Below, in pieces: positions 1-12,394 of a DNA stretch of 12,394 bases. Position numbers and translations under genes: made by a program. Location: assembly GCA_002478865.1 (NCBI GenBank), contig DLJZ01000023.1, positions 1 through 12,394 of the forward strand. The letters are read 5' to 3'. Position 1 is the first letter of the stretch; each line of letters starts with the position of its first letter. This stretch comes from Hungatella sp. UBA7603. GTDB taxonomy: Bacteria > Bacillota > Clostridia > Lachnospirales > Lachnospiraceae. The notes under the pieces were generated by a model. That model worked only from the letters and a program-made list of their open reading frames with translations, made no database searches and was not told where the DNA came from.

Positions 1-91
1 TTAACTTAATGACATTGACTTGACAGGGGGCATATCAGAATCCACACACAAAAATTGACAAAGAATACAAAAAGTTTCCCTTCGTCATTTA

Positions 92-1108: not shown

Positions 1109-1141
1109 TTGCCATCTCTCCTTTAACAGTTACTAACTATT

Positions 1142-1147
1142 ACTATA
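1142..1147 (-). promoter_or_regulatory. Candidate -10 element for the deacetylase gene
   Basis: On the minus strand a TATAGT hexamer preceded by TG one base upstream lies about 35 bases before the deacetylase ATG and upstream of its AAAGGAG. No good -35 hexamer is visible at 17 bases, so this is only a plausible vegetative promoter. Confidence 0.3.
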
Positions 1148-1189
1148 CAGGAAAGAAGAAAGAATTGGAAGAATATTACTAAAAAAGTA

Positions 1190-1233
1190 AAGAGTCTTAA
1201 AGGAAGTTTAAGCATCATCCCTTCAAGACTCTT
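1190..1233 (-). terminator. Rho-independent terminator, minus strand
   Basis: AAGAGTCTT at 1190-1198 pairs perfectly with AAGACTCTT at 1225-1233. One mismatch inward, AAGG (1200-1203) pairs with CCTT (1220-1223). Read on the minus strand, the hairpin is followed by TTACTTTTTT, as expected of an intrinsic terminator. It would end transcripts coming from the DRTGG gene or from a small unit starting near 1352, and it separates them from the deacetylase gene. Confidence 0.7.
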
Positions 1234-1258
1234 ACTCACTTCAAAATACGCGAATGAA

Positions 1259-1321
1259 TCACTTCACAAGCAATGCCAATGCAAAGCTTAATAACATAAT
1301 GGCCCAACTGCTAAATTCCAT
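1259..1321 (-). CDS. Possible 20-residue hydrophobic peptide (tentative)
   Basis: ATG at 1319-1321 to TGA at 1259-1261 encodes a 20-residue peptide: MEFSSW, then an unbroken hydrophobic run rich in Leu, Ala, Ile and Met, ending in Val-Lys. That is the composition of a single short membrane helix. A TATAAT hexamer lies about 38 bases upstream and a good terminator begins 26 bases downstream, so promoter, ORF and terminator would form a compact unit. Against it: there is no recognisable ribosome binding site and no good -35 element. It may be chance coding inside a small RNA or a 3' untranslated region. Confidence 0.15.
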   Translation of the reverse strand: MEFSSWAIMLLSFALALLVK

Positions 1322-1405
1322 GTTCGACTGTCTTTTGTTGTCAGATGTACCCTGACTTATTATATAGAAGAAATGCGCTTTTCCCGGGTTTAAAACTTCC
1401 GTTCT

Positions 1406-1756
1406 CTATCTCTTTATTAAGAAATTCTCTGTCTTGTGAAAGAGAGTCATAGCCGCCTCAAACACAGGCATGTCCGTTCTAAACACTGTTATTCCATGCT
1501 CTTTCGCTTTCTCAATCGCCTCACCCTCTATACCAACCCCTTCTGCCAAAATAATGCAGGAAGCTTTCACCAAGGTAGCAACAGCCAAAGTATTCCTGTT
1601 TGCAATGACCGTTACCCAGGCACACCCCCTTGGTGCTCTCCCCATGGCAAGGCTTAAAAGGTCACAGCAAAAGGGGGTGGATATCTCTTGATCTTTGCAG
1701 TCTCCTTCATTCATTAATTCAAATAAACCGCTCTCAATCAACTGTCCTATCGTCAT
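1406..1756 (-). CDS. DRTGG-domain protein, hydrogenase-cluster associated
   Basis: A 116-residue soluble protein made of one DRTGG-type domain, the fold also found in regulatory segments of some phosphotransacetylases and CBS-domain proteins. Stand-alone copies are known companions of clostridial [FeFe]-hydrogenase operons, but their function is not established. Visible features are the N-terminal MTIGQLIESGLF, a Cys-Cys pair at 30-31, a Gly/Ala-rich core with VTVIANRN and the LAEGVGIEGEAIEKAKE segment, and the C-terminal TDMPVFEAA. I chose the ATG at 1754-1756 because AAAGGGGG lies just upstream. A longer in-frame ORF would add 22 residues (up to 1822) but would run through the candidate promoter. 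The gene diverges from hydC, with the shared intergenic region carrying palindromes, so co-regulation with the hydrogenase is likely (inference). Confidence 0.8.
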   Translation of the reverse strand: MTIGQLIESGLFELMNEGDCKDQEISTPFCCDLLSLAMGRAPRGCAWVTVIANRNTLAVATLVKASCIILAEGVGIEGEAIEKAKEHGITVFRTDMPVFEAAMTLFHKTENFLIKR

Positions 1757-1797
1757 TTTATCCCCCTTTTTCTCTTTATTCATAAAAATAAAAGCAT

Positions 1798-1817
1798 TTG
1801 TGATAATTATAGCACAA
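1798..1817. promoter_or_regulatory. Candidate operator palindrome over the DRTGG promoter
   Basis: A 20-base inverted repeat, TTGTG-N10-CACAA, with further symmetric TA dinucleotides inside. It completely covers the extended -10 element of the divergent DRTGG gene, so a bound protein would block that promoter. The arms resemble Rex-type redox repressor half-sites (TTGTGA), but the overall length is 20 rather than the usual 18 bases. The regulator is not identified. Confidence 0.4.
1806..1814 (-). promoter_or_regulatory. Extended -10 promoter of the DRTGG gene
   Basis: On the minus strand the sequence reads TGCTATAAT: a perfect TATAAT at 1806-1811 with the TGn extension at 1812-1814. It lies about 50 bases upstream of the chosen ATG. 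No strong -35 hexamer is apparent, which is common for extended -10 promoters. The element falls inside the TTGTG...CACAA palindrome at 1798-1817. Confidence 0.5.
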
Positions 1818-1864
1818 ATCAATTCAACATCATAGGAACATTACACGTAATCTTTGTTATTTTT

Positions 1865-1882
1865 TTGTCGAATGTAGTACAA
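1865..1882. promoter_or_regulatory. Candidate Rex-like operator upstream of hydC
   Basis: TTGT-N10-ACAA has exactly the 18-base span of Rex operators (TTGTGA-N6-TCACAA type), but only the outer TTGT/ACAA positions match and the inner half-site bases do not. It lies 73 bases upstream of the hydC ATG, just before the candidate hyd promoter. Rex senses the NADH/NAD+ ratio and controls fermentative and hydrogenase genes in clostridia, so the site makes physiological sense. The sequence match alone is weak. Confidence 0.3.
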
Positions 1883-1907
1883 AACTATAGATTTTTTATC
1901 AATAACA

Positions 1908-1916
1908 TGGTAAAAT
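1908..1916 (+). promoter_or_regulatory. Candidate extended -10 promoter of the hydCBA operon
   Basis: TGGTAAAAT combines a TGn extension with a good -10 hexamer (TAAAAT, 1911-1916), about 39 bases before the hydC ATG and upstream of its AAGGAGG (1942-1948). The -35 position (TAGATT near 1888-1893) is poor. An alternative is TTGTCG (1865-1870) with TATAGA (1886-1891), but that spacer is only 15 bases. Confidence 0.4.
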
Positions 1917-1954
1917 ATCAGGTACATTGCACAACAATTTTAAGGAGGTTATTT

Positions 1955-2449
1955 ATGACTTGTATAAAGCAAGGTGTCCCTTTTCAAGGGACTGCAGAGC
2001 AGGAAGCTGCTTTAAAAGAAGCAATCTTCCTGCTTAAGGACGCAAAAGGGTCTCTTATGCCTATCATGCAGAAGGCACAAGAGATTTACGGTTATCTTCC
2101 AATCGAAGTTCAAACCATGATTTCCGATGAAACAGACATCCCACTGGAAAAGATCTATGGGGTGGCTACTTTTTATTCTCAATTTGCGCTTCAACCAAAG
2201 GGTAAATATCAAGTATCAGTCTGTCTTGGCACTGCCTGCTACGTAAAAGGCTCTGGCGATATCTTTCACAAACTGGAAGATCTCTTAGGAATTACCAACG
2301 GGGAATGCACCCCAGATGGTAAGTTTTCTCTTGATTCCTGCCGCTGTGTAGGTGCCTGCGGCCTCGCCCCTGTCCTTATGGTCAACGGGGAAGTTTATGG
2401 AAGGCTGGCGGCTGATGATGTTCCTGACATTCTGGCCAAATATGAGTAA
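1955..2449 (+). CDS. hydC: Bifurcating hydrogenase subunit C (NuoE-like [2Fe-2S] protein)
   Basis: Small electron-transfer subunit of the trimeric NAD(H)/ferredoxin-linked [FeFe]-hydrogenase, homologous to the 24-kDa NuoE subunit of complex I. The 164-residue protein has the family architecture: an N-terminal helical bundle (residues about 15-65, with LMPIMQKAQEIYGYLP), then a thioredoxin-fold [2Fe-2S] domain. The four cluster ligands are Cys90 and Cys95 (CLGTAC) and Cys131 and Cys135 (CVGAC); Cys129 is an extra nearby cysteine. Its length matches HydC/NuoE proteins. I set the start at 1955 because AAGGAGG lies 6 bases upstream. The 30-codon in-frame extension back to 1865 would run through the likely promoter. 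It is first in a five-gene operon with HydB and HydA. Family assignment is firm; the bifurcation role is inferred from the partners. Confidence 0.93.
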   Translation: MTCIKQGVPFQGTAEQEAALKEAIFLLKDAKGSLMPIMQKAQEIYGYLPIEVQTMISDETDIPLEKIYGVATFYSQFALQPKGKYQVSVCLGTACYVKGSGDIFHKLEDLLGITNGECTPDGKFSLDSCRCVGACGLAPVLMVNGEVYGRLAADDVPDILAKYE

Positions 2450-2461
2450 TCCAAACGGTAT

Positions 2462-3019
2462 ATGATGAAAGAGATTTCTTACCATATTCTGGATGCGGCA
2501 GAAAACTCCCTTCGGGCAGGCGCTCATCTAATCTCCATCCTAGTTTGGGTGGATGAGAAAAAAGACTGTCTGACTACCATTATTACTGATGATGGAGTGG
2601 GAATGATAGAAGAAGTTTTACTCAGGGTCACAGACCCGTTTTTTACCACACGAACCACCAGAGGGGTGGGGCTTGGCATTCCGTTTTTTCAATATGCGGC
2701 GGAAATAACAGGGGGAAGTTTCTCCATTTGTTCAGAACCGGGGAAGGGAACGAAAGTGGAAGCAGTTTTTTCACTATCCCATATCGACCGGATGCCTCTT
2801 GGTGACATGAATAGTACCATAGAGACATTAATTCTATGCCATCCAGACAAGGACTTTTTCTATACCTACCGTTATAATGATTCATCATTTGAATTGGATA
2901 CAAGAAGCTTTCGCAGCATTCTTTTAGATATCCCTCTTTATGAGCCGGAAATATCTGCTTTTATAAAGGAATACTTACGGGAGAACAAATCGGAAATAGA
3001 TGGAAATGCGGCCATTTAG
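2462..3019 (+). CDS. GHKL-family ATPase without histidine-phosphorelay domain (anti-sigma-kinase-like)
   Basis: A 185-residue protein whose first ~105 residues form a stand-alone GHKL/HATPase_c domain. Visible signatures are the N-box (DAAENS, Glu14-Asn15), the G1 box DDGVGM (43-48), the lid motif DPFFTT (58-63), the G2 box GVGLG (68-72) and GKGT (94-97). There is no dimerisation/phospho-acceptor His domain, no receiver and no membrane segment, so it is not an ordinary sensor kinase and is closer in design to SpoIIAB/RsbW-type Ser/Thr kinases. The C-terminal ~75 residues match nothing I recognise. The gene sits 12 bases after hydC with a poor ribosome binding site (translational coupling likely); ATG at 2465 is an equally possible start. 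From memory, ATPase genes of this kind occupy the same position in other clostridial and acetogen hyd operons. Its substrate is unknown. Confidence 0.85.
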   Translation: MMKEISYHILDAAENSLRAGAHLISILVWVDEKKDCLTTIITDDGVGMIEEVLLRVTDPFFTTRTTRGVGLGIPFFQYAAEITGGSFSICSEPGKGTKVEAVFSLSHIDRMPLGDMNSTIETLILCHPDKDFFYTYRYNDSSFELDTRSFRSILLDIPLYEPEISAFIKEYLRENKSEIDGNAAI

Positions 3020-3042
3020 GGTCGTTTTATTGGAGGAATAAC

Positions 3043-3420
3043 ATGAAGACTCTTGAGGAATTAAAGGAAATTCGAGATAAAATGCAGAGTCAGGTCAGTA
3101 TGAGAAAAGAAGATCACGCACGCACACGTATTCTGGTGGGTATGGCCACATGCGGTATTGCAAGCGGGGCAAGACCTGTTCTACAAACACTATCAAACCT
3201 GGTTCAGGAACACCATATGACAGACCGGTTCACCGTTATTCAGACCGGATGCAATGGCTTATGTCAGTACGAACCCATTGTAGAGATTTTGGAACCCGGA
3301 AAAGAAAAGATCATTTACGTCAAGATGACTCCCGAAAAAGCGGAAGAAGTATTTCAGGAGCATTTTGTAAAGGGTCAGGTTCTGGAACACTACACGTTGG
3401 CTTCTGCTAACGCACAATAA
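3043..3420 (+). CDS. Thioredoxin-fold [2Fe-2S]-type ferredoxin with only three cysteines
   Basis: A 125-residue protein with about 27 N-terminal charged residues followed by a thioredoxin-like ferredoxin domain of the NuoE/HydB N-terminal type (residues about 28-110). The second half of the cluster motif is intact (TGCNGLC, Cys70 and Cys74). The first half reads MATCGIASGA and supplies only Cys37, where HydB's N-terminal domain has the pair Cys9/Cys14. The whole protein contains three cysteines, so either the cluster has a non-cysteine ligand or no classical [2Fe-2S] cluster is bound. It is clearly related to the first ~85 residues of the next gene, hydB (compare VIQTGCNGLC with VVQTGCHGLC). 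A strong GGAGG lies 8 bases upstream of the ATG. Its position between the ATPase and hydB suggests an accessory or regulatory hydrogenase component. Confidence 0.85.
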   Translation: MKTLEELKEIRDKMQSQVSMRKEDHARTRILVGMATCGIASGARPVLQTLSNLVQEHHMTDRFTVIQTGCNGLCQYEPIVEILEPGKEKIIYVKMTPEKAEEVFQEHFVKGQVLEHYTLASANAQ

Positions 3421-3434
3421 GGAGGAATCAGGAG

Positions 3435-5222
3435 ATGTATCGTTCACATGTATTGGTTTGCGGCGGCACAGGGTGCACCTCTTCGGGCAGCCAGCAGATA
3501 ATGGCTAAATTAGTGGAAGAACTTGGAAGACAGGATCTTTCTGAGGAAGTATCCGTTGTACAGACCGGTTGTCACGGTCTTTGCGCATTAGGACCTATTA
3601 TGATCGTTTATCCGGACGCATCCTTTTATGCTATGGTAAAGGAAGAAGACATTCCGGAAATTGTAAATGAGCACTTATTAAAGGGACGGCCCGTAAAGAG
3701 ACTGCTATATGAGGAGACAGTAACTCCCTCTGGTATCAAAGCATTAGGTGATACCGATTTCTATAAAAAGCAGCACAGAATCGCCCTTAGAAACTGCGGC
3801 GTCATCAATCCAGAAGTCATTGAGGAATACATTGGTACCGGCGGTTATCAGGCACTTGGAAAAGTTCTCACTGAGATGACTCCTGATGAAGTAATTCAGG
3901 AACTTTTAGACAGCGGATTAAGAGGAAGAGGCGGCGCTGGTTTCCCTACCGGATTAAAATGGAAGCTTGCAAAGCAAAATGATGCGGATCAGAAATATGT
4001 TTGCTGCAACGCGGATGAAGGTGACCCCGGTGCATTTATGGACCGTTCCGTTTTAGAGGGAGATCCCCATGCACTTTTAGAATCCATGACCATTGCCGGT
4101 TACGCCATTGGCGCATCCCAAGGCTACATATACGTACGTGCAGAATATCCAATTGCCGTAGATCGTCTTAAAATCGCCATCAGCCAGTCCAGAGAGATGG
4201 GTCTTTTAGGAGACGATATCTTTGGAAGCGGATTTTCATTTGATATTGATCTTCGTCTCGGAGCAGGTGCTTTCGTATGCGGAGAAGAAACTGCACTTAT
4301 GGTTTCCATCGAAGGTAACCGCGGTGAGCCAAGACCACGACCTCCATTTCCAGCCCAAAAGGGTCTTTTTGGCAAGCCTACTATTTTAAATAACGTAGAA
4401 ACCTACGCAAATATTCCTCAGATCATCTTAAACGGTTCCAAATGGTTTGCTTCCATGGGTACAGAACGTTCTAAGGGAACCAAGGTATTTGCACTTGGTG
4501 GAAAGATTAAGAATACAGGACTTGTAGAAGTCCCCATGGGAACCACTCTTCGGGAAATCATTGAAGAAGTTGGTGGAGGCATTCCAAACGGGAAGAAATT
4601 TAAGGCAGCTCAGACCGGTGGACCTTCCGGCGGCTGTATTCCAATGGAACACTATGACATCCCAATTGACTACGACAACCTAATTGGCATTGGCTCTATG
4701 ATGGGCTCAGGCGGTCTGATTGTTCTAGATGAAACAGACTGTATGGTGGACATTGCTAAATTCTTCCTGGAGTTTACAGTAGAAGAATCCTGTGGCAAAT
4801 GTACTCCATGCCGCATCGGTACCAAGCGTATGTTAGAAATCCTTGATAAGATCACGATGGGTCACGCTACTCTCGAGGACGTAGACCGCTTGGAAGAGCT
4901 TTGTGATTATATTAAGGCGAACTCTGCATGCGGTTTAGGCCAGACAGCTCCCAATCCGGTACTGTCAACCCTAAAGTTTTTCAGGGACGAATACAATGCT
5001 CATATCATAGACAAGACTTGTCCAGCCGGTGTGTGTAAAGCGCTTCTCTCCTATCATATTGATTCCGAAAAGTGCAGAGGCTGTACTATCTGCGCCAGAA
5101 ACTGTCCAGTTCAGGCTATCTCCGGTTCTGTTAAGAACCCTCACATCATTGACCTTGATAAATGCATCAAGTGCGGGGTATGTATGGAGAAATGCAAATT
5201 CGACGCTGTATATAAAAGATAA
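3435..5222 (+). CDS. hydB: Bifurcating hydrogenase subunit B (NuoF-like flavoprotein)
   Basis: Flavoprotein subunit that exchanges electrons with NAD(H) and is the likely bifurcation centre of the HydABC complex. Domains of the 595-residue protein: an N-terminal thioredoxin-like [2Fe-2S] domain (Cys9, Cys14, Cys46, Cys50); the NuoF core with the glycine-rich NADH/FMN region GRGGAGFPTG (164-173) and the CNADEGDPGAFMDR flavin segment (191-204); an SLBB region; the N3-type [4Fe-4S] motif (Cys453, Cys456, Cys459 and Cys499); and a C-terminal two-[4Fe-4S] ferredoxin domain (Cys547/550/553/557 and Cys577/580/583/587). A further pair, Cys529 and Cys534, lies between the last two domains and may hold a metal. 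Length and order match HydB of trimeric hydrogenases. GGAGG upstream supports the start. The stop is followed 17 bases later by the hydA ATG. Confidence 0.96.
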   Translation: MYRSHVLVCGGTGCTSSGSQQIMAKLVEELGRQDLSEEVSVVQTGCHGLCALGPIMIVYPDASFYAMVKEEDIPEIVNEHLLKGRPVKRLLYEETVTPSGIKALGDTDFYKKQHRIALRNCGVINPEVIEEYIGTGGYQALGKVLTEMTPDEVIQELLDSGLRGRGGAGFPTGLKWKLAKQNDADQKYVCCNADEGDPGAFMDRSVLEGDPHALLESMTIAGYAIGASQGYIYVRAEYPIAVDRLKIAISQSREMGLLGDDIFGSGFSFDIDLRLGAGAFVCGEETALMVSIEGNRGEPRPRPPFPAQKGLFGKPTILNNVETYANIPQIILNGSKWFASMGTERSKGTKVFALGGKIKNTGLVEVPMGTTLREIIEEVGGGIPNGKKFKAAQTGGPSGGCIPMEHYDIPIDYDNLIGIGSMMGSGGLIVLDETDCMVDIAKFFLEFTVEESCGKCTPCRIGTKRMLEILDKITMGHATLEDVDRLEELCDYIKANSACGLGQTAPNPVLSTLKFFRDEYNAHIIDKTCPAGVCKALLSYHIDSEKCRGCTICARNCPVQAISGSVKNPHIIDLDKCIKCGVCMEKCKFDAVYKR

Positions 5223-5239
5223 TGGAGGGAGACCGCAAC

Positions 5240-6982
5240 ATGGAGAATATTACAATTAAAATCAACGGTATTGACGTAAGCGCTCCGGCAGGCTCCACCA
5301 TCCTTGAGGCTGCCAGACTTGCTCATATAGAGATACCAACGTTATGCTTTTTAAAAGAAATCAATGAAATCGCTGCATGCCGCATCTGTACCGTAGATAT
5401 CGGTGGCGGAAAGCTTGCAGCTTCCTGTGTATACCCAATCAATGCAGGAATGGAAATATGGACCAATACACCTAAGGTTCGTGATTACAGAAAGAAAACC
5501 CTGCAGCTTATCTTATCAAACCATGACCGCTCTTGCTTATCTTGTGTGAGAAGTGGAGATTGTGAACTTCAGACTTTGTGTAAAGAATTAGGAGTGGATT
5601 CTGAGAACCTCTATGATGGAGATAAGACACCATCCACTCTGGATGAAAGTGCTACTCACATGGTTCGTGATAATAGTAAATGTATCTTATGCCGCCGCTG
5701 CTCTTCTATCTGTGAAAAGGTTCAGGGAATCGGCGTAATCGGACCAAACCAAAGAGGATTTGCCACCTTTATCGGCTCCCCATTTGAGATGGGCCTTGGT
5801 GAAACAAGCTGCGTTTCCTGCGGTCAGTGTATTGCTGTCTGCCCAACCGGTGCTCTTTATGAAAAGAGCAGCATAAAAGAGGTTGCTGCTGCCATCGCTG
5901 ACTCAGGTAAGCATGTACTTGTTCAGACCGCTCCTGCCGTACGTGCGGCACTTGGCGAGGAATTTGGCTTCCCAATTGGCACTAATGTAGAAGGAAAGAT
6001 GGTTGCTGCTTTAAGAAGACTTGGCTTTGACAACGTTTTTGATACCAACTTCGGTGCGGATCTTACCATCTTGGAGGAAGCACACGAATTCATTCATCGA
6101 GTGCAGCATGGCGGTGTTCTTCCTATGATCACTTCCTGTTCTCCTGGCTGGATTAAATACTGTGAGCACTACTTCCCTGAGATGACAGAGAACTTATCCT
6201 CTTGCAAATCTCCTCAGCAGATGTTTGGCGCCATTGCCAAATCTTATTACGCAGAGAAGATGGGATTAAATCCAGAGGACATCGTTTCCGTAAGCGTTAT
6301 GCCTTGTACCGCTAAGAAGTTTGAGATTGGAAGAGACAATCAAGCTGCAAATGGTAGCCCTGATGTGGATTACACCATCACAACCAGAGAGTTAGCCCGA
6401 ATGATCAAACAAGCTGGTCTCCGCTTTGAAAATCTTCCAGATGAATCCTTTGACATCCCACTAGGTATTGGTACTGGTGCTGGAGTTATCTTTGGAGCCA
6501 CCGGCGGAGTTATGGAGGCTGCTCTTCGAACTGCTGTGGAAACTCTTACTGGAGAAGAATTGCAAAAACTTGAATTTAACGATGTGCGTGGTATGGAAGG
6601 AATCAAAGAAGCCTCTTATGAGATAGGTGATTTGAAAGTCAACGTAGCCGTTGCCTCCGGCCTTATCAATGCTAGAGATTTATTAAATCGCGTAAAATCA
6701 GGGGAAGCAGACTATCACTTTATTGAGATTATGGGTTGTCTTGGTGGATGTATTGGTGGAGGCGGCCAGCCTCAGCAGCCAGGTTATGTCCGCAACACCA
6801 CAGATATCCGTGGCTTGCGAGCAAAGGTATTATATGATTCTGATGCAGGGAATAAGATTCGTAAATCTCATGAAAACCCTGCAATTAAAGAGCTTTATAG
6901 TACCTATTTAGGAGAACCAGGAAGCGAAAAAGCTCACCATCTCCTTCATACCACTTATGTAAAAAGAAAAATCAATTCCTAA
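5240..6982 (+). CDS. hydA: Catalytic [FeFe]-hydrogenase subunit A of the bifurcating complex
   Basis: Catalyses reversible 2H+ + 2e- = H2 at the H-cluster. Domains of the 580-residue protein: a plant-type [2Fe-2S] ferredoxin (Cys36, 47, 50, 63); a His-ligated [4Fe-4S] domain (His95, Cys99, 102, 108); a two-[4Fe-4S] ferredoxin (Cys148/151/154/158 and Cys191/194/197/201); and the H-cluster domain from about 225. The H-cluster motifs are L1 TSCSPGW (298-304), L2 MPCTAKKFE (Cys356) and L3 EIMGCLGGCIGGGGQP (Cys500, Cys504). L1 has Ser301 where most enzymes have a second Cys. An ATG at 5222 overlaps the hydB stop, but the GGAGGGA at 5225-5230 places the true start at 5240. Overall layout resembles HydA/HndD of NAD(P)-linked multimeric hydrogenases. 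It is the last gene of the operon, with a terminator downstream. Confidence 0.95.
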   Translation: MENITIKINGIDVSAPAGSTILEAARLAHIEIPTLCFLKEINEIAACRICTVDIGGGKLAASCVYPINAGMEIWTNTPKVRDYRKKTLQLILSNHDRSCLSCVRSGDCELQTLCKELGVDSENLYDGDKTPSTLDESATHMVRDNSKCILCRRCSSICEKVQGIGVIGPNQRGFATFIGSPFEMGLGETSCVSCGQCIAVCPTGALYEKSSIKEVAAAIADSGKHVLVQTAPAVRAALGEEFGFPIGTNVEGKMVAALRRLGFDNVFDTNFGADLTILEEAHEFIHRVQHGGVLPMITSCSPGWIKYCEHYFPEMTENLSSCKSPQQMFGAIAKSYYAEKMGLNPEDIVSVSVMPCTAKKFEIGRDNQAANGSPDVDYTITTRELARMIKQAGLRFENLPDESFDIPLGIGTGAGVIFGATGGVMEAALRTAVETLTGEELQKLEFNDVRGMEGIKEASYEIGDLKVNVAVASGLINARDLLNRVKSGEADYHFIEIMGCLGGCIGGGGQPQQPGYVRNTTDIRGLRAKVLYDSDAGNKIRKSHENPAIKELYSTYLGEPGSEKAHHLLHTTYVKRKINS

Positions 6983-7046
6983 AATCGTTGGGCTAAGAAA
7001 CATATAGCCACAATTTAAAATTCAAAAATTGTTTTATCATCATATA

Positions 7047-7091
7047 AAAAGCATCCTGATGGCTTGTAACGCCAATTCAGGATGCTTTTTT
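7047..7091 (+). terminator. Rho-independent terminator of the hydCBA operon
   Basis: GCATCCTGA (7051-7059) pairs with TCAGGATGC (7077-7085), extended inward by TGGC/GCCA across a two-base bulge and followed by TTTTTT. The 5' arm is preceded by AAAA, so it may also work in reverse. It lies 65 bases past the hydA stop and isolates the hydrogenase operon from the spore coat genes. Confidence 0.88.
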
Positions 7092-7163
7092 GTTCCATTT
7101 TTAAGAAATCATATTTTGTATCATACATGTATTTTCTAAATTAATGAGAATTTTAAACAAAGT

Positions 7164-7192
7164 GAATGGTTTAAGAGAAAATCTCCATACTA
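7164..7192 (+). promoter_or_regulatory. Candidate SigG-type sporulation promoter for the coat genes
   Basis: GAATG (7164-7168), a 17-base spacer, then CATACTA (7186-7192) matches the forespore SigG pattern gHATR-N17-CATnnTA. It precedes a two-gene coat unit, and CotF-like genes in Bacillus are known SigG targets, which supports it. The caution is spacing: transcription starting about 7 bases after the -10 would begin at or just inside the GGAGGTG ribosome binding site (7198-7204), leaving almost no leader. Confidence 0.4.
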
Positions 7193-7211
7193 AGATTGGA
7201 GGTGATAAAAC

Positions 7212-7385
7212 ATGAGCCCAAAAGAATTAATCTATATTGAAGATGCTCTCGGACATGAGAAATTTCTAAAAACACAGTGTCAGGAAGCAGCACAAAATTT
7301 GCAGGATCCAGAATTAAAAGCCTGCGCACAGGAAATTCTTCAAAAGCACCAACAGATTTTTGATAGCTTCTATAATTTAGTGTAA
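7212..7385 (+). CDS. Small CotF-partner spore coat-like protein
   Basis: A 57-residue acidic, helical protein beginning MSPKELIYIEDALGHEKF, with two cysteines (23 and 38) and a Gln-rich second helix. Short helical proteins of this kind typically precede CotF-family genes in Clostridia and are annotated as spore coat or coat-F-like. The start is supported by GGAGGTG 7 bases upstream. Thirteen bases separate its stop from the next gene, whose ribosome binding site overlaps this stop, so the two are co-transcribed. Assignment rests mainly on the neighbour and on general resemblance to the CotF helical hairpin. Confidence 0.7.
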   Translation: MSPKELIYIEDALGHEKFLKTQCQEAAQNLQDPELKACAQEILQKHQQIFDSFYNLV

Positions 7386-7398
7386 GGAGGAACCGTAT

Positions 7399-7644
7399 AT
7401 GGATGACAAGATTATTATGGAAAACCTGCTCAACACAGCCAAGGGAGTTTGTGACTTGTATATGCATGGAACCATTGAATCCCCTACTATGAATGTACAC
7501 CAAGCATTTGATACTGCATTAAATGACAGTTTATGCATTCAGGACAGCCTTTATAAGAAAATGTCCGCTAAGGGATGGTATACCACAGAACAAGCAGAGC
7601 AGCAGAAAATAACCAAAGTAAAAAATCAGTTTGCAGGAATGTAA
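7399..7644 (+). CDS. Spore coat protein F (CotF) family protein
   Basis: An 81-residue protein of the Coat_F family, which forms ferritin-like helical bundles in the spore coat or the forespore. Visible family features are the first helix MENLLNTAKGVCDLYMHGTI, the central segment with HQAFDTALNDSL, and the diagnostic C-terminal YKKMSAKGWY (kM..kGWY) followed by a Gln-rich tail. Its length is typical of clostridial single-domain members. AAGGAGG overlaps the stop of the preceding small gene. The unit is framed by terminators on both sides and carries its own candidate sporulation promoter, so it is independent of the flanking hydrogenase operons. Confidence 0.88.
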   Translation: MDDKIIMENLLNTAKGVCDLYMHGTIESPTMNVHQAFDTALNDSLCIQDSLYKKMSAKGWYTTEQAEQQKITKVKNQFAGM

Positions 7645-7687
7645 TCACTTATCATAACATAGTCGATTAAGTTCAGAGCAAATCTGT

Positions 7688-7738
7688 AAAAATGCGTCTT
7701 GACGTGACCTTTAAGAGGTCCAATCAAGACGCATTTTT
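7688..7738. terminator. Bidirectional terminator between convergent transcription units
   Basis: A 15-base perfect stem: AAAAATGCGTCTTGA (7688-7702) pairs with TCAAGACGCATTTTT (7724-7738). A second small stem, GACCT/AGGTC (7706-7710 with 7716-7720), lies in the loop. A-run and T-run flank the GC-rich core, so it can terminate the spore coat unit on the plus strand and the hydrogenase/HydS operon on the minus strand. Confidence 0.88.
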
Positions 7739-7787
7739 ATAAGAATTCTATTATATCACATGATTTTAATTTTATAATAGCCGTTCC

Positions 7788-9239
7788 TTAATGCCTGTGC
7801 ATTGGCACCATCTCAAGTCCCTGGCTCTTTAAGTTTTCATGAACTTCTCTTCCATCCGCCTGTCCGATCAAAAGATCTCTGGCTTTTTTGGCTTCGTTTT
7901 CATTCTTATGTCTTGCAGGACCACCGACGCATCCACCGGTGCAGACCATGCCTTCAACAAAATCCGTAGGAAGCTTTCCAACCTTTAAAAGCATGAGTGC
8001 CTTCTTGCACTCTGCCGCACCATTACACTTCATTACCTGGATATCCGTATTTTGTTCTGTCTCTTTCAGACATTCTAATACGGCTGCGGTTACACCGCCT
8101 CCATTTCCAAAACGCTTGCCAAATACAGAAGCCTGCTGGTACGAATTTTCTTCTGGTTCTAAGTCTACTCCCTTTGCCTGGATCATGGCATAGGCCTCTC
8201 CAAGAGTCAAAACATAATCCGCATTGTCTTTTACATTTAGGTCAAGACTTTCGCTCTTCTTTGCAATACATGGGCCGATGAACACGGTCACTGTATCTGG
8301 ATCTTGTTCCTTGAGCATTCTGGATACGGCACACATTGGAGATACGGTGGTAGACATATTTTCAAGCAACATAGGATAATGCTGTTTGATCATATTGACA
8401 AATGCCGGACAACAAGAGGTGGTCATCTTCTTGCCTTCCTTATAAGCTTCTGCCCACTCCGCTGCCTCTGCTGCTGCTGTTAAGTCACCACCTAAGGCAA
8501 CTTCCACCATGTCTTCAAATCCAACTTTCTTTAATGCGGTTTTCCAGCTTGCCATAGTAATATCGGGTCCATACTGGCCTTCCGTAGCAGGAGCTACCAT
8601 AGCAACTACCTTTTTCCCTGCTTTAATCAGCTTTATTACATCAGCAAGAAACGTCTTTGTTCCAATGGCTCCAAAGGGGCAGCCATTGACACATGCTCCG
8701 CACTGAATGCATTTTTTCTCATCTATAACAACAATGTCGTTTTCATCCATTGTAATGGCATCCACCGGACAACTTTTCTTGCAAGGGCGTGTCAGATCTG
8801 CGATGGCATTATAAGGGCAGGCCTGGGAGCATTTCCCGCATTCTTTGCATTTATCCGTGTGAATATGGGCGCGGTCGTGGCCCATGGTGATTGCACCAAA
8901 ATTACAGGATGCCTGGCATGCTTTTCCCATACAAAGCTGGCAGTTATCCGTAACCACATAACGGGCGATGGGACAGCCCTCACAGGCAGAGTTTATGACC
9001 TGTACGATATTTGTGGTGCCCTTCCCGCTAGGGCATAACCCCTCCGCAAGACGAACTCTCTCTCTGATAATTTCCCGCTCCCTGTAAATGCAGCATCGAA
9101 ACTGAGCTTTTGGACCTGGAATGATGTGATAAGGAATCTCATTTCTACCTTCCTCTAACCGATCCTCCCAAACATATTTTGCCACCTCAAGCAGTACGTT
9201 GTGTGTAATGCGTTGTAATGTTGCGTCACTTGTTGCCAT
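7788..9239 (-). CDS. Monomeric [FeFe]-hydrogenase, group B type
   Basis: A 483-residue hydrogenase probably exchanging electrons with ferredoxin in the cytoplasm. The N-terminal ~115 residues are a cysteine-rich region (Cys49-50, 69, 86, 89, 100, 103, 108, 112). Next come [4Fe-4S] ferredoxin motifs: CKECGKCSQACP (131-142), an incomplete CKKSCP element (153-158) and CIQCGACVNGCP (177-188). The H-cluster domain follows, with L1 TSCCPAF (Cys276-277), L2 GPCIAKKSE (Cys324) and L3 EGMVCTGGCVGGPARH (Cys433, Cys437). The shortened L3 without the GGGQP ending and the L2 GPC separate it from HydA and fit the group B enzymes common in Clostridia, whose physiological role is unsettled. AGGAGG lies 7 bases before the ATG. 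It follows the phosphatase gene by 53 bases in one operon and ends before the bidirectional terminator. Confidence 0.9.
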   Translation of the reverse strand: MATSDATLQRITHNVLLEVAKYVWEDRLEEGRNEIPYHIIPGPKAQFRCCIYREREIIRERVRLAEGLCPSGKGTTNIVQVINSACEGCPIARYVVTDNCQLCMGKACQASCNFGAITMGHDRAHIHTDKCKECGKCSQACPYNAIADLTRPCKKSCPVDAITMDENDIVVIDEKKCIQCGACVNGCPFGAIGTKTFLADVIKLIKAGKKVVAMVAPATEGQYGPDITMASWKTALKKVGFEDMVEVALGGDLTAAAEAAEWAEAYKEGKKMTTSCCPAFVNMIKQHYPMLLENMSTTVSPMCAVSRMLKEQDPDTVTVFIGPCIAKKSESLDLNVKDNADYVLTLGEAYAMIQAKGVDLEPEENSYQQASVFGKRFGNGGGVTAAVLECLKETEQNTDIQVMKCNGAAECKKALMLLKVGKLPTDFVEGMVCTGGCVGGPARHKNENEAKKARDLLIGQADGREVHENLKSQGLEMVPMHRH

Positions 9240-9292
9240 AATTTTCCTCCTGTAACTTCCACCGAAGTGGCCGTGTGAATATCCTTTGTGTA

Positions 9293-10474
9293 CTAATAAT
9301 ATGTGATTGTAACCTTTTTCCCCATTTCTTCTACCGCATGCTTAAGCTGATCCACAAGATTTTGGCGTATGCCAAGATCAAAGGGTAGACCTGGGTTTTG
9401 ATACGCACTATTAATTGCCATTCCAACATACAAATTAAGCTCCGTACAGTCCTCAATCAGCATCTTTGCGACCAAAGAGCCTCCATTTTGTTTATCCAAC
9501 TCCTTAAAGTATTCCTCTGTCACGGACTGATTTTTTACAAACTGCTTTAAAAGCTTTAATACCCGGTTTAGGGTCAGTACGCCTTCTGTCACAAGCTCCA
9601 CCCCATCAAGAGTGGCAATGGGGGGAATATCTGGGTCATAGTAATGAAGGGAAACAGAAAGCTTCTTTCCAGTCTCTCTGGATACAATATTTGCACTGGT
9701 TCCCCCGCAGACGATTCGCTTGGTGGTATCATCCCCTGAGAGAAACTCGCTTACCATTGAGACATCATCCCGTTTGCTTTTAGGCGGTCCAGTCATTAAA
9801 TGTACCGGCTTCCTGTCGATGATCCTCATAACTGCAACTGTGGTATCATCACCGGGCCGGTACTGGTAAAGCTCATCACAAGCCGTTGTAAGGGCTGAGG
9901 CAAGTCGTATGGCTGAGATGGTCAGACGATACTGCTTTACCGCATAAGCAGCCACATCTTCCCATAGCCACCCGAAATTAAGAAGCTGTCCCACTCCCGC
10001 ATGAATGGTGCCATCACTCAAAAGAATCAGAGCATCTCCTTTTTTAACCCGAAACCTGTATTCATTGATTGTCTTATTTCGTATGATCCTGGTGTTTTGA
10101 GGAATCGGGATTAGGCTCCCATCCCGGATAAAGATACAGCTTGGGTTGTCAAACTCCACTAAATAGGCCTCACCGCTGTTAAACACCTGCAAAATACTAA
10201 ACGTGGAGTAAGCCACCTGCCGCACCTGACAAACTGGAAGCGTCTCTACTATGGTTTCCACGCATTCCTCTAATGTGGCTCCATTTAAAAACATGGTGCC
10301 AAGGATTTTGGAAGTCATAGTCGCCAAAATGTTTGCCTTTACTCCGCTCCCCATTCCATCGGCCAGAATCATCAAATTGGATTCATCCGTTTGCAAAAAT
10401 TCCACTTTATCCCCGCAAAGAACTTCATTGAACTTATTAAGGCTTTTGTATGCTGCATCCACTGTAATTCCCAT
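9293..10474 (-). CDS. SpoIIE/PP2C-family protein phosphatase coupled to HydS
   Basis: Predicted Mn/Mg-dependent Ser/Thr phosphatase. The 393-residue protein has a SpoIIE-type catalytic domain in residues about 1-218, with the metal-binding motifs LADGMGSG (Asp39), LLSDG (Asp154) and GDDTTVAV (Asp209-Asp210). Residues about 222-393 form a second region (containing CGGTSANIVSRETGK and TEGVLTLNRVL) that I do not recognise. There is no membrane segment. The ATG at 10472-10474 overlaps the last base of the hydS stop (TGATG); GTG three bases upstream is an alternative start giving a 4-base overlap. This coupling suggests near-equimolar synthesis with HydS. PP2C-type phosphatases are known neighbours of PAS-linked group C hydrogenases, so it is the likely output of H2 or redox sensing (inference). 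Its phosphoprotein substrate is not in the window. Confidence 0.88.
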   Translation of the reverse strand: MGITVDAAYKSLNKFNEVLCGDKVEFLQTDESNLMILADGMGSGVKANILATMTSKILGTMFLNGATLEECVETIVETLPVCQVRQVAYSTFSILQVFNSGEAYLVEFDNPSCIFIRDGSLIPIPQNTRIIRNKTINEYRFRVKKGDALILLSDGTIHAGVGQLLNFGWLWEDVAAYAVKQYRLTISAIRLASALTTACDELYQYRPGDDTTVAVMRIIDRKPVHLMTGPPKSKRDDVSMVSEFLSGDDTTKRIVCGGTSANIVSRETGKKLSVSLHYYDPDIPPIATLDGVELVTEGVLTLNRVLKLLKQFVKNQSVTEEYFKELDKQNGGSLVAKMLIEDCTELNLYVGMAINSAYQNPGLPFDLGIRQNLVDQLKHAVEEMGKKVTITYY

Positions 10475-12207
10475 CACCGAACCTCGCTTTCGCTTCCTTC
10501 ATCCAATAAAGATCTGCAAAGCTTCGTCAATGTGGTTTTTGTCTCTGCTGTGGTTTCCCCCAACAGTCCTGCGATTTCCTGGGCCACCATCATCTGCTTG
10601 TGGATAACCTTCTGAGCCAAATCAATGGTCTCCAGCTTTTTTTCGTATTCCTGCTTTGCAAGTTCTTCTTCTCTCGTAATATCGATAAATGTAGCTAAAA
10701 CCATATCTTCTTTTTCAACATAAACAATGTTCTGCATGGTGGAAAAGCCATATTCCCCGTAGCTTACCTTTTTTCCATGAATCTTTTGATGGGTTTTATA
10801 TACCCATTGGAAATCAGAAGGATCAATAAACTCGTATAAATACATGGTTAGAGCCTCCTGTCTGCTCTTTCCAAAGTATTTCTCGCCCATTCCAGAAAAC
10901 TCCAGGATCTTCATGTCTTTATCCACAATCAGTACAATATTTGGTGAAGTTTCCAACACAAGATTAGAAAGGGATTCTGCCTTTTCACTCATAAAAGGAA
11001 TGCACATATTAAGTTCTGCCTTCTTCTGAAATACAGCGATCGCCTTTTCACGGCATGTGGAATAACCGCAGGCTCCGCAGTTTAGCTCATCCTCCGGTTT
11101 AAGTTTTCCTGTCATCTTAAAAATCTCTTTGATCTGGGCCTCGGTGGGCAAAACATCCTCTGGTGCCCGGTTCATAAAATGCTTTTGAAACGATATCTGG
11201 TCCATGATGGGATCAATCTCTTCCCATGGAACCGGTTCCTTCTCAATAGTTTCTTCCATATCCAGCTTTACTTTAAACCGGGAGATCTTCTCATCTTCCA
11301 CCAATGGGCCGTTAATGCAGCCACCGGAGCATACGTTCATCTCAATAAAGCAACCTTCCATAGTTCCCTCTGTTATGCTATCACAAAGGTCCATACAGTT
11401 GCGAATGCCATGGACATAAAGTTTCCGGTAATGGTCTCCTTCCGTTTCCGTCGCCAGCACGGAACTTATAATTCCGTTGGTGACAGGGTAAAGGCGGTTT
11501 ACTCTGGGGTTCTGGTTGGTAAATGGGATATCCTCACACGATTCGATAGAAATCCCTTCCTCTAAGAGCCATCTTTTAATATCAACAAAGCTTAAGACCG
11601 CATCAATATATCCAGCGTGGCGGGCATCCTCTGCCTCCTTCTTCTTGGCGATACAAGGACCGAGAAACACCACCTTTGTATCATAACCCATCTCTGTCTT
11701 CAAAAGCTTTCCATGAGCGATCATAGGCGATACTACTGGTGCCAGATAAGGAATCAACTGCGGATAATAAATCTCAACTAAATCATTGACGCCAGGACAG
11801 CAGGTGGTGATGATGGTGTCCATCTTTCCTTCCCTTAACAGCCGAGTATACTCTGCCGTCACCAGGGCGGCCCCTTCTGCGGTCTCTCTGACATCAGTAA
11901 AACCAAGTTTTCGCAGTGCTCCGTTTATCTGGCCAATGGAGTCGTATTTTAATAGCCCCATATAAGATGGTGCCAGGGAGATTATGGTTCTCTCCCCACG
12001 GCTTATAAATTCCTTGACCAGATCCAGATCACTGATCAGAGTTTTGGCAGACTGTGGACATACCTGCATGCATTTACCACATAAAATGCATTGATCCGGC
12101 ATGATCTCTGCCAGTTCGTTTTTGATCATGACTGCCTTGACTTCACAGTTACGAATACATTTGTAGCAGTGTTTGCATTTGGTAGCCTTGAAATCAATGA
12201 TTCCCAT
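10474..12207 (-). CDS. hydS: Putative sensory [FeFe]-hydrogenase with PAS domain (HydS-like, group C)
   Basis: Proposed H2/redox sensor rather than bulk catalyst. Domains of the 577-residue protein: an N-terminal two-[4Fe-4S] ferredoxin (Cys11/14/17/21 and Cys40/43/46/50); an H-cluster domain (about 70-320) with L1 TTCCPGV (Cys136-137), L2 GPCIAKKKE (Cys185) and L3 EMNVCSGGCINGPL (Cys293, Cys297); an Fe-S domain of the CGACGYSTC type (Cys377, 380, 385, 402); a PAS domain (about 411-515, SPNIVLIVDKDMKILEFS); and a C-terminal predicted coiled region to the end. No kinase or DNA-binding output domain is present, so the signal probably passes to a partner, with the overlapping SpoIIE phosphatase as first candidate. 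I prefer the ATG at 12205-12207, 8 bases after GGGAGG; TTG at 12213 is too close to that site. The upstream ferredoxin gene ends 2 bases before this ATG. Confidence 0.88.
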   Translation of the reverse strand: MGIIDFKATKCKHCYKCIRNCEVKAVMIKNELAEIMPDQCILCGKCMQVCPQSAKTLISDLDLVKEFISRGERTIISLAPSYMGLLKYDSIGQINGALRKLGFTDVRETAEGAALVTAEYTRLLREGKMDTIITTCCPGVNDLVEIYYPQLIPYLAPVVSPMIAHGKLLKTEMGYDTKVVFLGPCIAKKKEAEDARHAGYIDAVLSFVDIKRWLLEEGISIESCEDIPFTNQNPRVNRLYPVTNGIISSVLATETEGDHYRKLYVHGIRNCMDLCDSITEGTMEGCFIEMNVCSGGCINGPLVEDEKISRFKVKLDMEETIEKEPVPWEEIDPIMDQISFQKHFMNRAPEDVLPTEAQIKEIFKMTGKLKPEDELNCGACGYSTCREKAIAVFQKKAELNMCIPFMSEKAESLSNLVLETSPNIVLIVDKDMKILEFSGMGEKYFGKSRQEALTMYLYEFIDPSDFQWVYKTHQKIHGKKVSYGEYGFSTMQNIVYVEKEDMVLATFIDITREEELAKQEYEKKLETIDLAQKVIHKQMMVAQEIAGLLGETTAETKTTLTKLCRSLLDEGSESEVR

Positions 12208-12209
12208 GA

Positions 12210-12394
12210 TCAAAGCCTCCCTATAATTTCCCTGTCAAAAAACTCCTTCGTGTCTTCTGGCTTTAAAGAATACAACTGGCCATCAACGGTCACACAAACA
12301 CCGCTCACGCAATTGCCGCTGCAAAAGGAACCGTTTAAATCCACCTGTTCCTCCAGATGACGCTCCTTTACCATAGACTGAAGCTGTGCTACAA
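12210..12394 (-). CDS. Thioredoxin-like [2Fe-2S] ferredoxin, C-terminal part (truncated by window edge)
   Basis: The last 60 codons of a gene entering from the right edge, ending TGA at 12210-12212. The visible part reads as a thioredoxin-fold ferredoxin C-terminal half: LNGSFCSGNCVSGVCVTVDG carries a C-x3-C pair (plus a further Cys) followed by a beta strand and a short helix ending FFDREIIGRL. The first two cluster cysteines would lie beyond the window. It sits immediately upstream of hydS in the same operon, so it probably passes electrons to or from HydS. Small proteins of this type are known companions of HydS-like genes. The start and total length cannot be determined here. Confidence 0.7.
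   Translation of the reverse strand, partial: VAQLQSMVKERHLEEQVDLNGSFCSGNCVSGVCVTVDGQLYSLKPEDTKEFFDREIIGRL

Follow-up and report, generated by a model that had tools for sequence, protein, structure and literature searches.

Introduction

Kinase-like genes have been described within bifurcating [FeFe] hydrogenase operons before, and the closest systems to the one considered here are those of Acetobacterium woodii and Clostridium thermocellum. In A. woodii, HydE (Awo_c27000) is encoded by a histidine-kinase-like ATP-binding gene between hydC and hydD (PMC3315566, PMC10472528) and is described as a protein that 'may be involved in assembly or signalling' (PMC3315566). In C. thermocellum, Cthe_0338-0342 includes a gene with a histidine kinase annotation, Cthe_0339 (PMC3990059). 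Here, we have analysed 12,394 nucleotides of DNA from Hungatella sp. UBA7603 (contig DLJZ01000023.1, positions 1 to 12,394), referred to throughout as the window, in which a bifurcating hydrogenase operon (hydABC) similarly harbours a gene for a GHKL ATPase, termed simply GHKL below, and faces a second operon encoding a SpoIIE-type phosphatase, HfsC. HydE is likened to GHKL by position and description alone, with the A. woodii gene order (C-E-D-B-A) taken from locus numbers. A preliminary description of the window had proposed that GHKL and HfsC are the opposing kinase and phosphatase of one H2-responsive switch. We favour, with moderate confidence, the view that these are two regulators of H2 metabolism lying side by side rather than the halves of one switch, and that GHKL and the adjacent DRTGG-domain protein, DRT2, are the residue of a H2- or redox-responsive block of genes found in relatives.

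The operon containing HfsC has the same gene order as hfsABCD of Thermoanaerobacterium saccharolyticum and hydS-hydA2 of Ruminococcus albus (PMC5707799, PMC11837493), from which it differs in facing a hydABC operon. Deletion of hfsA or hfsB raises ethanol yield about 1.8-fold, and hfsC together with hfsD is reportedly needed for high yield (PMC5707799). Sensory hydrogenases are also said to lie usually upstream of trimeric bifurcating hydrogenases, 'often separated by a histidine/serine kinase' (PMC3561251), and they are still termed 'putative', with little direct evidence for their role (PMC8924675). Of the described arrangements, the clusters of Carere 2012 (citing Calusinska 2010), in which group D M2e sensory hydrogenases without a PAS domain occur near bifurcating hydrogenases and kinases, resemble the block that we report below, differing from it in that DRTGG proteins, PHP proteins and kinases beside Rnf go unmentioned in the available part of that paper (PMC3561251). 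A full-text search for DRTGG with hydrogenase, covering mostly open literature, returned one paper, on an AAA-DRTGG protein near lactate dehydrogenase genes, and no description of the block, which may be partly described in Calusinska 2010.

Results

Co-occurrence of GHKL with DRTGG proteins and with HfsC

Co-occurrence was assessed in 147 genomes of the class (Clostridia), each at least 90% complete except for the window's own, and in 150 genomes of the family (Lachnospiraceae), where HydA presence was not controlled. Matches in the class were accepted at E<=1.3e-16 for GHKL (next match 2e-11), E<=3e-24 for HfsC (next 6e-11) and E<=1e-5 for DRTGG proteins, which gave 85, 52 and 84 genomes respectively; a strong group A6 HydA (E<=4e-209) was present in 93. 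HfsC was counted as present in G054, as a contig-edge fragment, and in G142 and G055, at 27-29% identity. Weak matches with E values of 1e-15 to 1e-17 in the kinase searches were taken as SpoIIAB-like and set aside (G114 and a second match in G068 for the class; G227, G234, G268 and second matches in G158 and G233 for the family). Tallies are given as both/first only/second only/neither.

GHKL co-occurs most closely with DRTGG proteins, both across the class (83/2/1/61, the single DRTGG-only case sitting at a contig edge) and in the family (38/0/0/112), and the same is seen among the 93 strong-A6 genomes (74/2/1/16). A SpoIIAB-like kinase, which is a separate protein, also accompanies GHKL in the class (77/8/1/61) and, within the family, is present in 36/38 GHKL-bearing genomes. 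The tally for strong A6 HydA and GHKL was 76/17/9/45. It had been suggested in passing that a DRTGG protein might be a target shared by GHKL and HfsC; a partnership between the DRTGG protein and GHKL is supported, the sharing with HfsC is not, and the earlier interpretation as a whole is partly supported, with this passing mention proving to be its strong link.

The relationship between GHKL and HfsC is of a different order. Across the class the two are associated (39/46/13/49; odds ratio (OR) 3.2, p=0.003), as are HfsC and the kinase (both in 34 genomes, kinase only in 44, HfsC only in 18, neither in 51; OR 2.2, p=0.04), but the former link vanishes once hydrogenase content is fixed, given that the strong-A6 genomes return an OR of 1.1 (33/43/7/10; p=1). 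The class thus yields no linkage beyond shared hydrogenase content; by the yardstick of independent occurrence set in the preliminary description, the idea of two opposing enzymes in one switch is not supported here. HfsC is absent from 46 of the 85 GHKL genomes and GHKL from 13 of the 52 HfsC genomes; HfsC occurs in 5/8 GHKL genomes without the kinase versus 34/77 with it. The co-occurrence anticipated by the preliminary description does hold within the family (28/10/8/104; OR 36, p=4e-15), where the 28 genomes with both genes carry them on one contig in 22 cases, at most 15 kb apart in 13 and at most 50 kb apart in 19, with the other 6 pairs split between contigs. Since HydA presence was not controlled in this sample, linkage through function is not told apart there from proximity inherited by descent.

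A conserved gene block beside GHKL in relatives

We mapped 40 class loci from 39 of the 84 other GHKL genomes (the first 20 being the best-scoring and the rest picked for variety), together with the best 80 of 205 confirmed named loci, 48 of which had full flanks. In 28 of the 40 class loci, five genes stand in a row, encoding a first DRTGG protein (DRTGG1), a SpoIIAB-like GHKL kinase, a H-cluster protein, a second DRTGG protein (DRTGG2) and a PHP protein, and the usual neighbours of this block are NuoE, GHKL, HydC-like, NuoF and HydA genes. Among the fully flanked named loci, DRTGG2 was found in 45/48 and DRTGG1, the kinase, the H-cluster protein and PHP in 43/48 each. In one locus, L104, a kinase match proved SpoIIAB-like, with 26% identity to the first row; it was excluded from the kinase alignment, though it is still counted in the 40-locus map tally.

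Residual-distance correlations, computed over 52 loci after removal of the NuoF and HydA signal and leaving out the window's locus (labelled L008 in our comparisons) and two sister loci (L113 and L114), are descriptive and carry no significance test. The highest values were those of DRTGG1, the kinase and the H-cluster protein among themselves (0.49-0.72), with DRTGG2-PHP at 0.53, PHP-kinase at 0.44 and GHKL-PHP at 0.42; HydC was near zero or negative with every partner.

The block is not confined to hydrogenase genes. RnfC is the next mapped gene after GHKL in 3/40 class loci, and Rnf genes are present in 6/40, which suggests that the same regulator may serve Rnf too. GHKL is followed by RnfC-RnfD in L096, L097 and L101, and Rnf genes come after hyd genes in L088, L095 and L100. 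HfsC lies within the flanks of 19/80 named loci (16/48 of those fully flanked); in 11 of the 19 it faces the hydrogenase operon, and in 8 its placement differs. In L092 (G084, contig C19), the sole mapped class locus with HfsC, this gene immediately precedes DRTGG1 and the SpoIIAB-like kinase. A further membrane protein, c8, of about 280-320 aa and with a SPOR-like look on inspection, is encoded ahead of the block or of the hyd genes in some loci (e.g. L093, L101 and L102) and was found in 9 of the 41 loci clustered.

The window carries a reduced locus with relaxed constraint on GHKL

The window lies at the start of contig C6 in a draft genome (3.1 Mb, 30 contigs, 67.9% complete), and its features are as follows:

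92-1108, minus strand: polysaccharide deacetylase (PF01522), its catalytic domain preceded by a long low-complexity stretch rich in Gln, Thr and Glu
1409..1756, minus strand: DRTGG-domain protein of type 2 (DRT2/DRTGG2), start ATG at 1756; PF07085 22.2 bits, cut-off 25.2
1955..2449, plus strand: NuoE-like thioredoxin-fold [2Fe-2S] subunit, in the hydC position of A. woodii; PF01257 166.5 bits
2462..3019, plus strand: GHKL ATPase of 185 aa, the positional equivalent of A. woodii HydE and not the HydE maturase; PF02518 47.5 bits
3043..3420, plus strand: small thioredoxin-like [2Fe-2S]-fold protein (HydC-like), in the hydD position of A. woodii; PF01257 27.3 bits
3435..5222, plus strand: HydB/NuoF-like subunit (FMN, NADH, Fe-S); Complex1_51K and NADH_4Fe-4S
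5222..6982, plus strand: HydA, NADH-dependent [FeFe] hydrogenase of group A6; NF040763 893 bits, cut-off 765
7212-7385 and 7399-7644, plus strand: two small Coat_F (spore coat) open reading frames (ORFs); PF07875 21 bits (below the cut-off of 25.7) and 62.4 bits
7788..9239, minus strand: HfsD/HydA2, monomeric group B1 [FeFe] hydrogenase; TIGR04105 601 bits, cut-off 450
9293..10474, minus strand: HfsC, SpoIIE-type PP2C phosphatase; PF07228 55.9 bits, cut-off 25
10474..12207/12213, minus strand: HfsB/HydS, sensor-type [FeFe] hydrogenase with FeS and PAS domains; PF02906 192 bits, PF04060 42.6 bits, PF00989 28.4 bits
12210..12392, minus strand: small thioredoxin-like [2Fe-2S] protein at the head of the hfs operon (HfsA position), 3' part only; no Pfam match, type read from sequence

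The plus-strand hydrogenase operon runs NuoE-like, GHKL, small thioredoxin-like, HydB/NuoF-like and HydA (A6), the NuoE-like gene having its start ATG at 1955 with AAGGAGG ahead of it on our reading of the sequence; DRT2 (1756-1409) is divergent from it and the minus-strand hfs operon convergent with it. The closest named relative found for the GHKL gene is Lacrimispora algidixylanolytica (Lachnospiraceae; 94% identity). This species (L113) and [Clostridium] aerotolerans (L114) share with the window a reduced locus, in which DRTGG2 lies beside NuoE-GHKL-HydC-NuoF-HydA with hfsDCB facing, and from which DRTGG1, the SpoIIAB-like kinase, the H-cluster protein and PHP are gone in all three. Kinase and PHP orthologues were not found in the window's genome at its 67.9% completeness, which returned weak paralogues. 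That the missing block is an assembly artefact is unlikely, because three separate assemblies agree.

Selection was compared between the window pairs and two backgrounds of intact pairs, namely 18 disjoint full-block pairs (omega being undefined for 3 GHKL and 3 DRT2 pairs, leaving 15 defined) and the first 14 intact pairs found, in which loci are shared between pairs. For GHKL, omega was 0.28 (window-L113) and 0.15 (window-L114) versus an intact-pair median of 0.07 and maximum of 0.14, whereas HfsC, at 0.03 and 0.045, stayed within the 0.00-0.05 of HfsC-bearing intact pairs (14-pair background). Given that GHKL omega is raised after loss of the block and that of HfsC is unchanged, the constraint on GHKL tracks the DRTGG block and not HfsC. 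For DRT2, omega was 0.20-0.23 versus an intact median of 0.10. Relative to HydA, the non-synonymous rate (dN) of DRT2 was 24.1 (window-L113) and 5.5 (window-L114) against an intact median of 2.3 and maximum of 5.4, and that of GHKL was 6.0 (window-L113) against a median of 1.9 and maximum of 4.5.

GHKL is not a SpoIIAB-type kinase

As the preliminary description had it, GHKL is a lone ATPase without a His-phosphorelay domain in the bifurcating hydrogenase operon, and ORF calling and the Pfam scan agree on this. Its sole Pfam match above cut-off is HATPase_c (residues 9-105), with a second HATPase family, PF13589, below cut-off; no His-box/DHp or receiver domain matched, and so GHKL lacks the phospho-acceptor domain of a sensor histidine kinase. 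Homologues number 4,230 at E<=1e-3 and, in most mapped relatives, the gene lies between NuoE-like and small HydC-like genes, from which we conclude that its placement is not due to chance.

The assignment of GHKL to the SpoIIAB/RsbW type has to be rejected. The SpoIIAB model scores 23.7 bits against a cut-off of 135, and a profile of 83 GHKL sequences retrieved no SpoIIAB or RsbW chain from the PDB at E<=1e-3, the best match being KinB at 60 bits. Histidine-kinase models, at no more than 48 bits, also fall far under their own cut-offs. The N-box residues Asp11 and Asn15 are invariant in 83/83 aligned sequences, and the position four residues before the N-box Asn holds Asp, not Glu, in 83/83; this Glu is presumably the catalytic base in SpoIIAB/RsbW kinases, and we take it that GHL ATPases likewise carry a catalytic Glu at the N-box. 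The AlphaFold model (pLDDT 91.9) consists of an ATPase fold with a C-terminal helix/strand part and has the fold of the GHL ATPases (MutL/TopoVI-B/GyrB) without their N-box catalytic Glu. The best matches in the VIA list are MutL and TopoVI-B, all 50 rows being GHL ATPases; histidine kinases are not excluded by their absence from these 50 rows, and Foldseek ranked a histidine kinase first.

Proteins of the block

The block kinase (c7) is nearest to SpoIIAB (48.6 bits versus a cut-off of 135; PDB SpoIIAB at E 1e-10), and its N-box residues E54 and N58 are invariant in 19/19 sequences, as in SpoIIAB. The H-cluster protein is about 430 aa long, and no PAS similarity is visible in its consensus, the protein itself not having been scanned against Pfam. 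Four Cys, taken as the cluster ligands, are present in at least 95% of 92 sequences, with Ala in at least 70% at the C299 position. Both DRTGG types keep a D-[LM]-[LM]-S motif (95 and 97 sequences), which in the DRTGG2 model lies close to where a helix begins and whose Ser we take to resemble the phosphorylated Ser of SpoIIAA.

Window DRT2 has a DRTGG fold (AlphaFold pLDDT 92.9), with Foldseek returning 2ioj (DRTGG) as the best match (TMq 0.73, E 3.7e-4) and 3l2b at E 9.5e-4; this fold is shared by the HPr kinase N-domain and by the DRTGG domains of AF1212 and a CBS-PPase. The PF07085 profile, which falls short of its cut-off on window DRT2, scores 43.7 bits on a type-2 relative. DRT2 has all 14 invariant columns of a 50-row alignment in which it is itself a row, and differs from the consensus at 7 of 10 further columns that are close to invariant.

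The facing hfs operon and remaining features

In order of transcription the facing operon encodes a small [2Fe-2S]-type protein, HfsB, HfsC and HfsD, that is, the order of hfsABCD with the equivalence to HfsA by position only. The SpoIIE-type phosphatase was correctly placed by the preliminary description, its ATG overlapping the stop of the PAS-linked hydrogenase gene upstream by one base (TGATG). HfsC contains LADGMGSG, LLSDG and PGDDTT, as expected of SpoIIE/RsbU-type PP2C phosphatases, and its PDB matches are chains of SpoIIE, of other serine phosphatases and of RsbX, with DGMGSG and SDG aligned with SpoIIE. We take DGMGSG, SDG and GDDTT to be metal-binding Asp motifs.

HfsB, with a hydrogenase domain and a PAS domain, belongs to the group C sensory [FeFe] hydrogenases, and keeps two adjacent Cys in its first H-cluster motif (TTCCPG); the H-cluster protein of the block mostly lacks the first of these two. 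The consensus of the latter retains CP, PC and C..GC, with mostly Ala ahead of the first, as in HydS of Thermotoga maritima, which differs from window HfsB in the same way; Cys is found at that position in 17% of sensory enzymes (PMC10055695). Judged from these motifs, HfsB and the block protein may not be equally competent as catalysts. An N just beyond the window end (L008 about 12395-12430) interrupts the operon's small first gene, which has ORFs on either side of it and is of unsure full length.

The two Coat_F ORFs occupy the gap separating the convergent operons. No Rfam match was found in the window at gathering scores, and a known RNA regulator was rejected on this basis; promoter-like sites numbered 19 against 22 expected and terminator-like sites 16 against 10 expected. 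Common Rex control of both operons was also rejected, with 4 matches (at most 3 mismatches) in L008 versus 1.9 expected, a count reached in 26/200 shuffles, and none upstream of either operon.

Discussion

A regulatory role near H2 metabolism, as suggested at the outset, remains plausible for the window, and our preferred reading assigns it to two systems. In the hfs operon, HfsB would report H2 or redox state, probably by way of its H-cluster and PAS domain, to HfsC, the phosphatase encoded next to it. This half of the earlier proposal stands as plausible, and a similar path has been proposed for R. albus, where Zheng et al. (as cited in PMC5707799) have HydS signalling via PAS to an adjacent Ser/Thr kinase; the onward link to GHKL is the half that is not supported. 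The HfsB-HfsC idea has therefore been published before, with conflicting reports on the need for HfsC.

For the second system we propose a path resembling partner switching, on account of the H-cluster motifs, the kinase N-box, the DRTGG Ser motif and the DRTGG fold; its sensing and phosphorylation steps, its target and the sign of its effect are what we infer from these. The genes of the block adjoin those of HydABC, the bifurcating hydrogenase, or in some genomes those of Rnf. Its H-cluster protein would sense H2 or redox state, and the SpoIIAB-like kinase may phosphorylate a DRTGG protein, with the conserved Ser of D-[LM]-[LM]-S as candidate site. The DRTGG proteins might then relay this state to the ATP-dependent GHKL protein, which could adjust the assembly or activity of the NADH-oxidising flavin subunit (HydB or RnfC), and the PHP protein, as a putative phosphoesterase, would reset the system. 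In the window lineage, where the sensor, kinase, DRTGG1 and PHP have been lost, the GHKL/DRT2 pair persists under weaker purifying selection, and any switch there is vestigial or fed from elsewhere because of those losses.

Several observations weigh against this reading. GHKL is missing from 17/93 strong-A6 genomes (G123 probably through a contig gap), 9/85 GHKL genomes have no strong A6 HydA, and G036, a single contig, has GHKL and a hydrogenase without DRTGG or kinase, so that GHKL can occur alone. Co-occurrence would also follow from the co-inheritance of one operon, and the residual correlation of GHKL with DRTGG2, like the others descriptive, is just 0.27. The relaxed constraint rests on a single evolutionary loss event; within it, the omega of DRT2 (0.20) lies inside the intact-pair range (maximum 0.27), as does the GHKL/HydA dN ratio of window-L114 (2.5). 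The MutL/TopoVI-B ATPases that best match the GHKL model in the VIA list are not protein kinases, and a search of mostly open literature turned up no biochemical work on GHKL, the DRTGG proteins, the kinase or PHP. As regards the hfs half, hfsD alone, without hfsC or the remaining operon, suffices to raise ethanol yield in Thermoanaerobacterium thermosaccharolyticum, which speaks against a need for HfsC (PMC11837493).

We tentatively go one step further, to a possibility that we hold less firmly than the reading above, namely that GHKL and the block, six proteins in all, form a variant of partner switching in which DRTGG proteins replace the STAS anti-anti-sigma protein, a H-cluster protein is the sensor and an electron-transfer complex (HydABC or Rnf) is the output in place of a sigma factor. 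Likeness to SpoIIAA/SpoIIAB/SpoIIE and RsbV/W/U/T lies in the SpoIIAB-like GHKL kinase of the relatives' block and the SpoIIE-type phosphatase of the window. The differences are that no STAS gene is seen, with DRTGG perhaps taking its place, that the presumed sensor is a H-cluster protein, that PHP is present, that the block is without a sigma factor gene and that GHKL of the window is not SpoIIAB-like. The STAS substrate of classical systems had already been reported as missing, and we concur: a scan of ten window proteins gave no match to STAS, and the genome's SpoIIAA/SpoIIAB pair lies on contig C22.

Of the alternatives, the one that survives best, whilst still unlikely in our view, is that GHKL is a chaperone-like assembly ATPase for a flavin-Fe-S subunit of HydABC or Rnf, with DRTGG a nucleotide- or state-sensing cofactor and no phosphotransfer. 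An assembly factor sits uneasily with the 17 strong-A6 genomes that do without GHKL, with its closest co-occurrence being with DRTGG rather than HydA, with its position after HydA in L092 and with the presence of a SpoIIAB-like kinase and a H-cluster protein in its block.

We consider it improbable, more so than the assembly role, that GHKL and the DRTGG gene here are decaying leftovers without a present role, in operons that are neighbours through the clustering of H2 genes. The loss of four block genes in the window and two sister species is what such decay would look like, as is the raised dN relative to HydA (2.5 and 6.0 for GHKL, 5.5 and 24 for DRT2, against medians of 1.9 and 2.3). Both ORFs are nevertheless open and under purifying selection (omega 0.15-0.28 for GHKL and 0.20-0.23 for DRT2), and DRT2 retains its 14 invariant columns, albeit with the departures noted above.

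That GHKL is a kinase opposed by HfsC on one phosphoprotein, with the H2 signal coming from HfsB, is very improbable, since the strong family linkage (13 of 22 same-contig pairs within 15 kb), the arrangement in L092 and the weak class associations of HfsC with GHKL and with the SpoIIAB-like kinase are outweighed by the independence of the two genes in strong-A6 genomes, the infrequent and variously oriented occurrence of HfsC near GHKL in named loci, the dissimilarity of GHKL to SpoIIAB/RsbW and the relaxation of GHKL with HfsC constraint unchanged.

Returning to the view of two regulators side by side, this removes the tempting but unsupported pairing of GHKL with HfsC and names, across the class sample, the constant partners of one H-cluster protein: DRTGG proteins, a SpoIIAB-like kinase, PHP and GHKL. 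The block stands beside HydABC and in some genomes beside Rnf, and one lineage offers a natural case of loss, with relaxed constraint on the GHKL that remains. How hydrogenase and Rnf activity are matched to H2 in fermenting and acetogenic clostridia is an old question, which bears on ethanol yield, acetogenesis and rumen H2. If the tentative variant of partner switching is true, H2 or redox state would directly tune bifurcation or ion-pumping in these bacteria.

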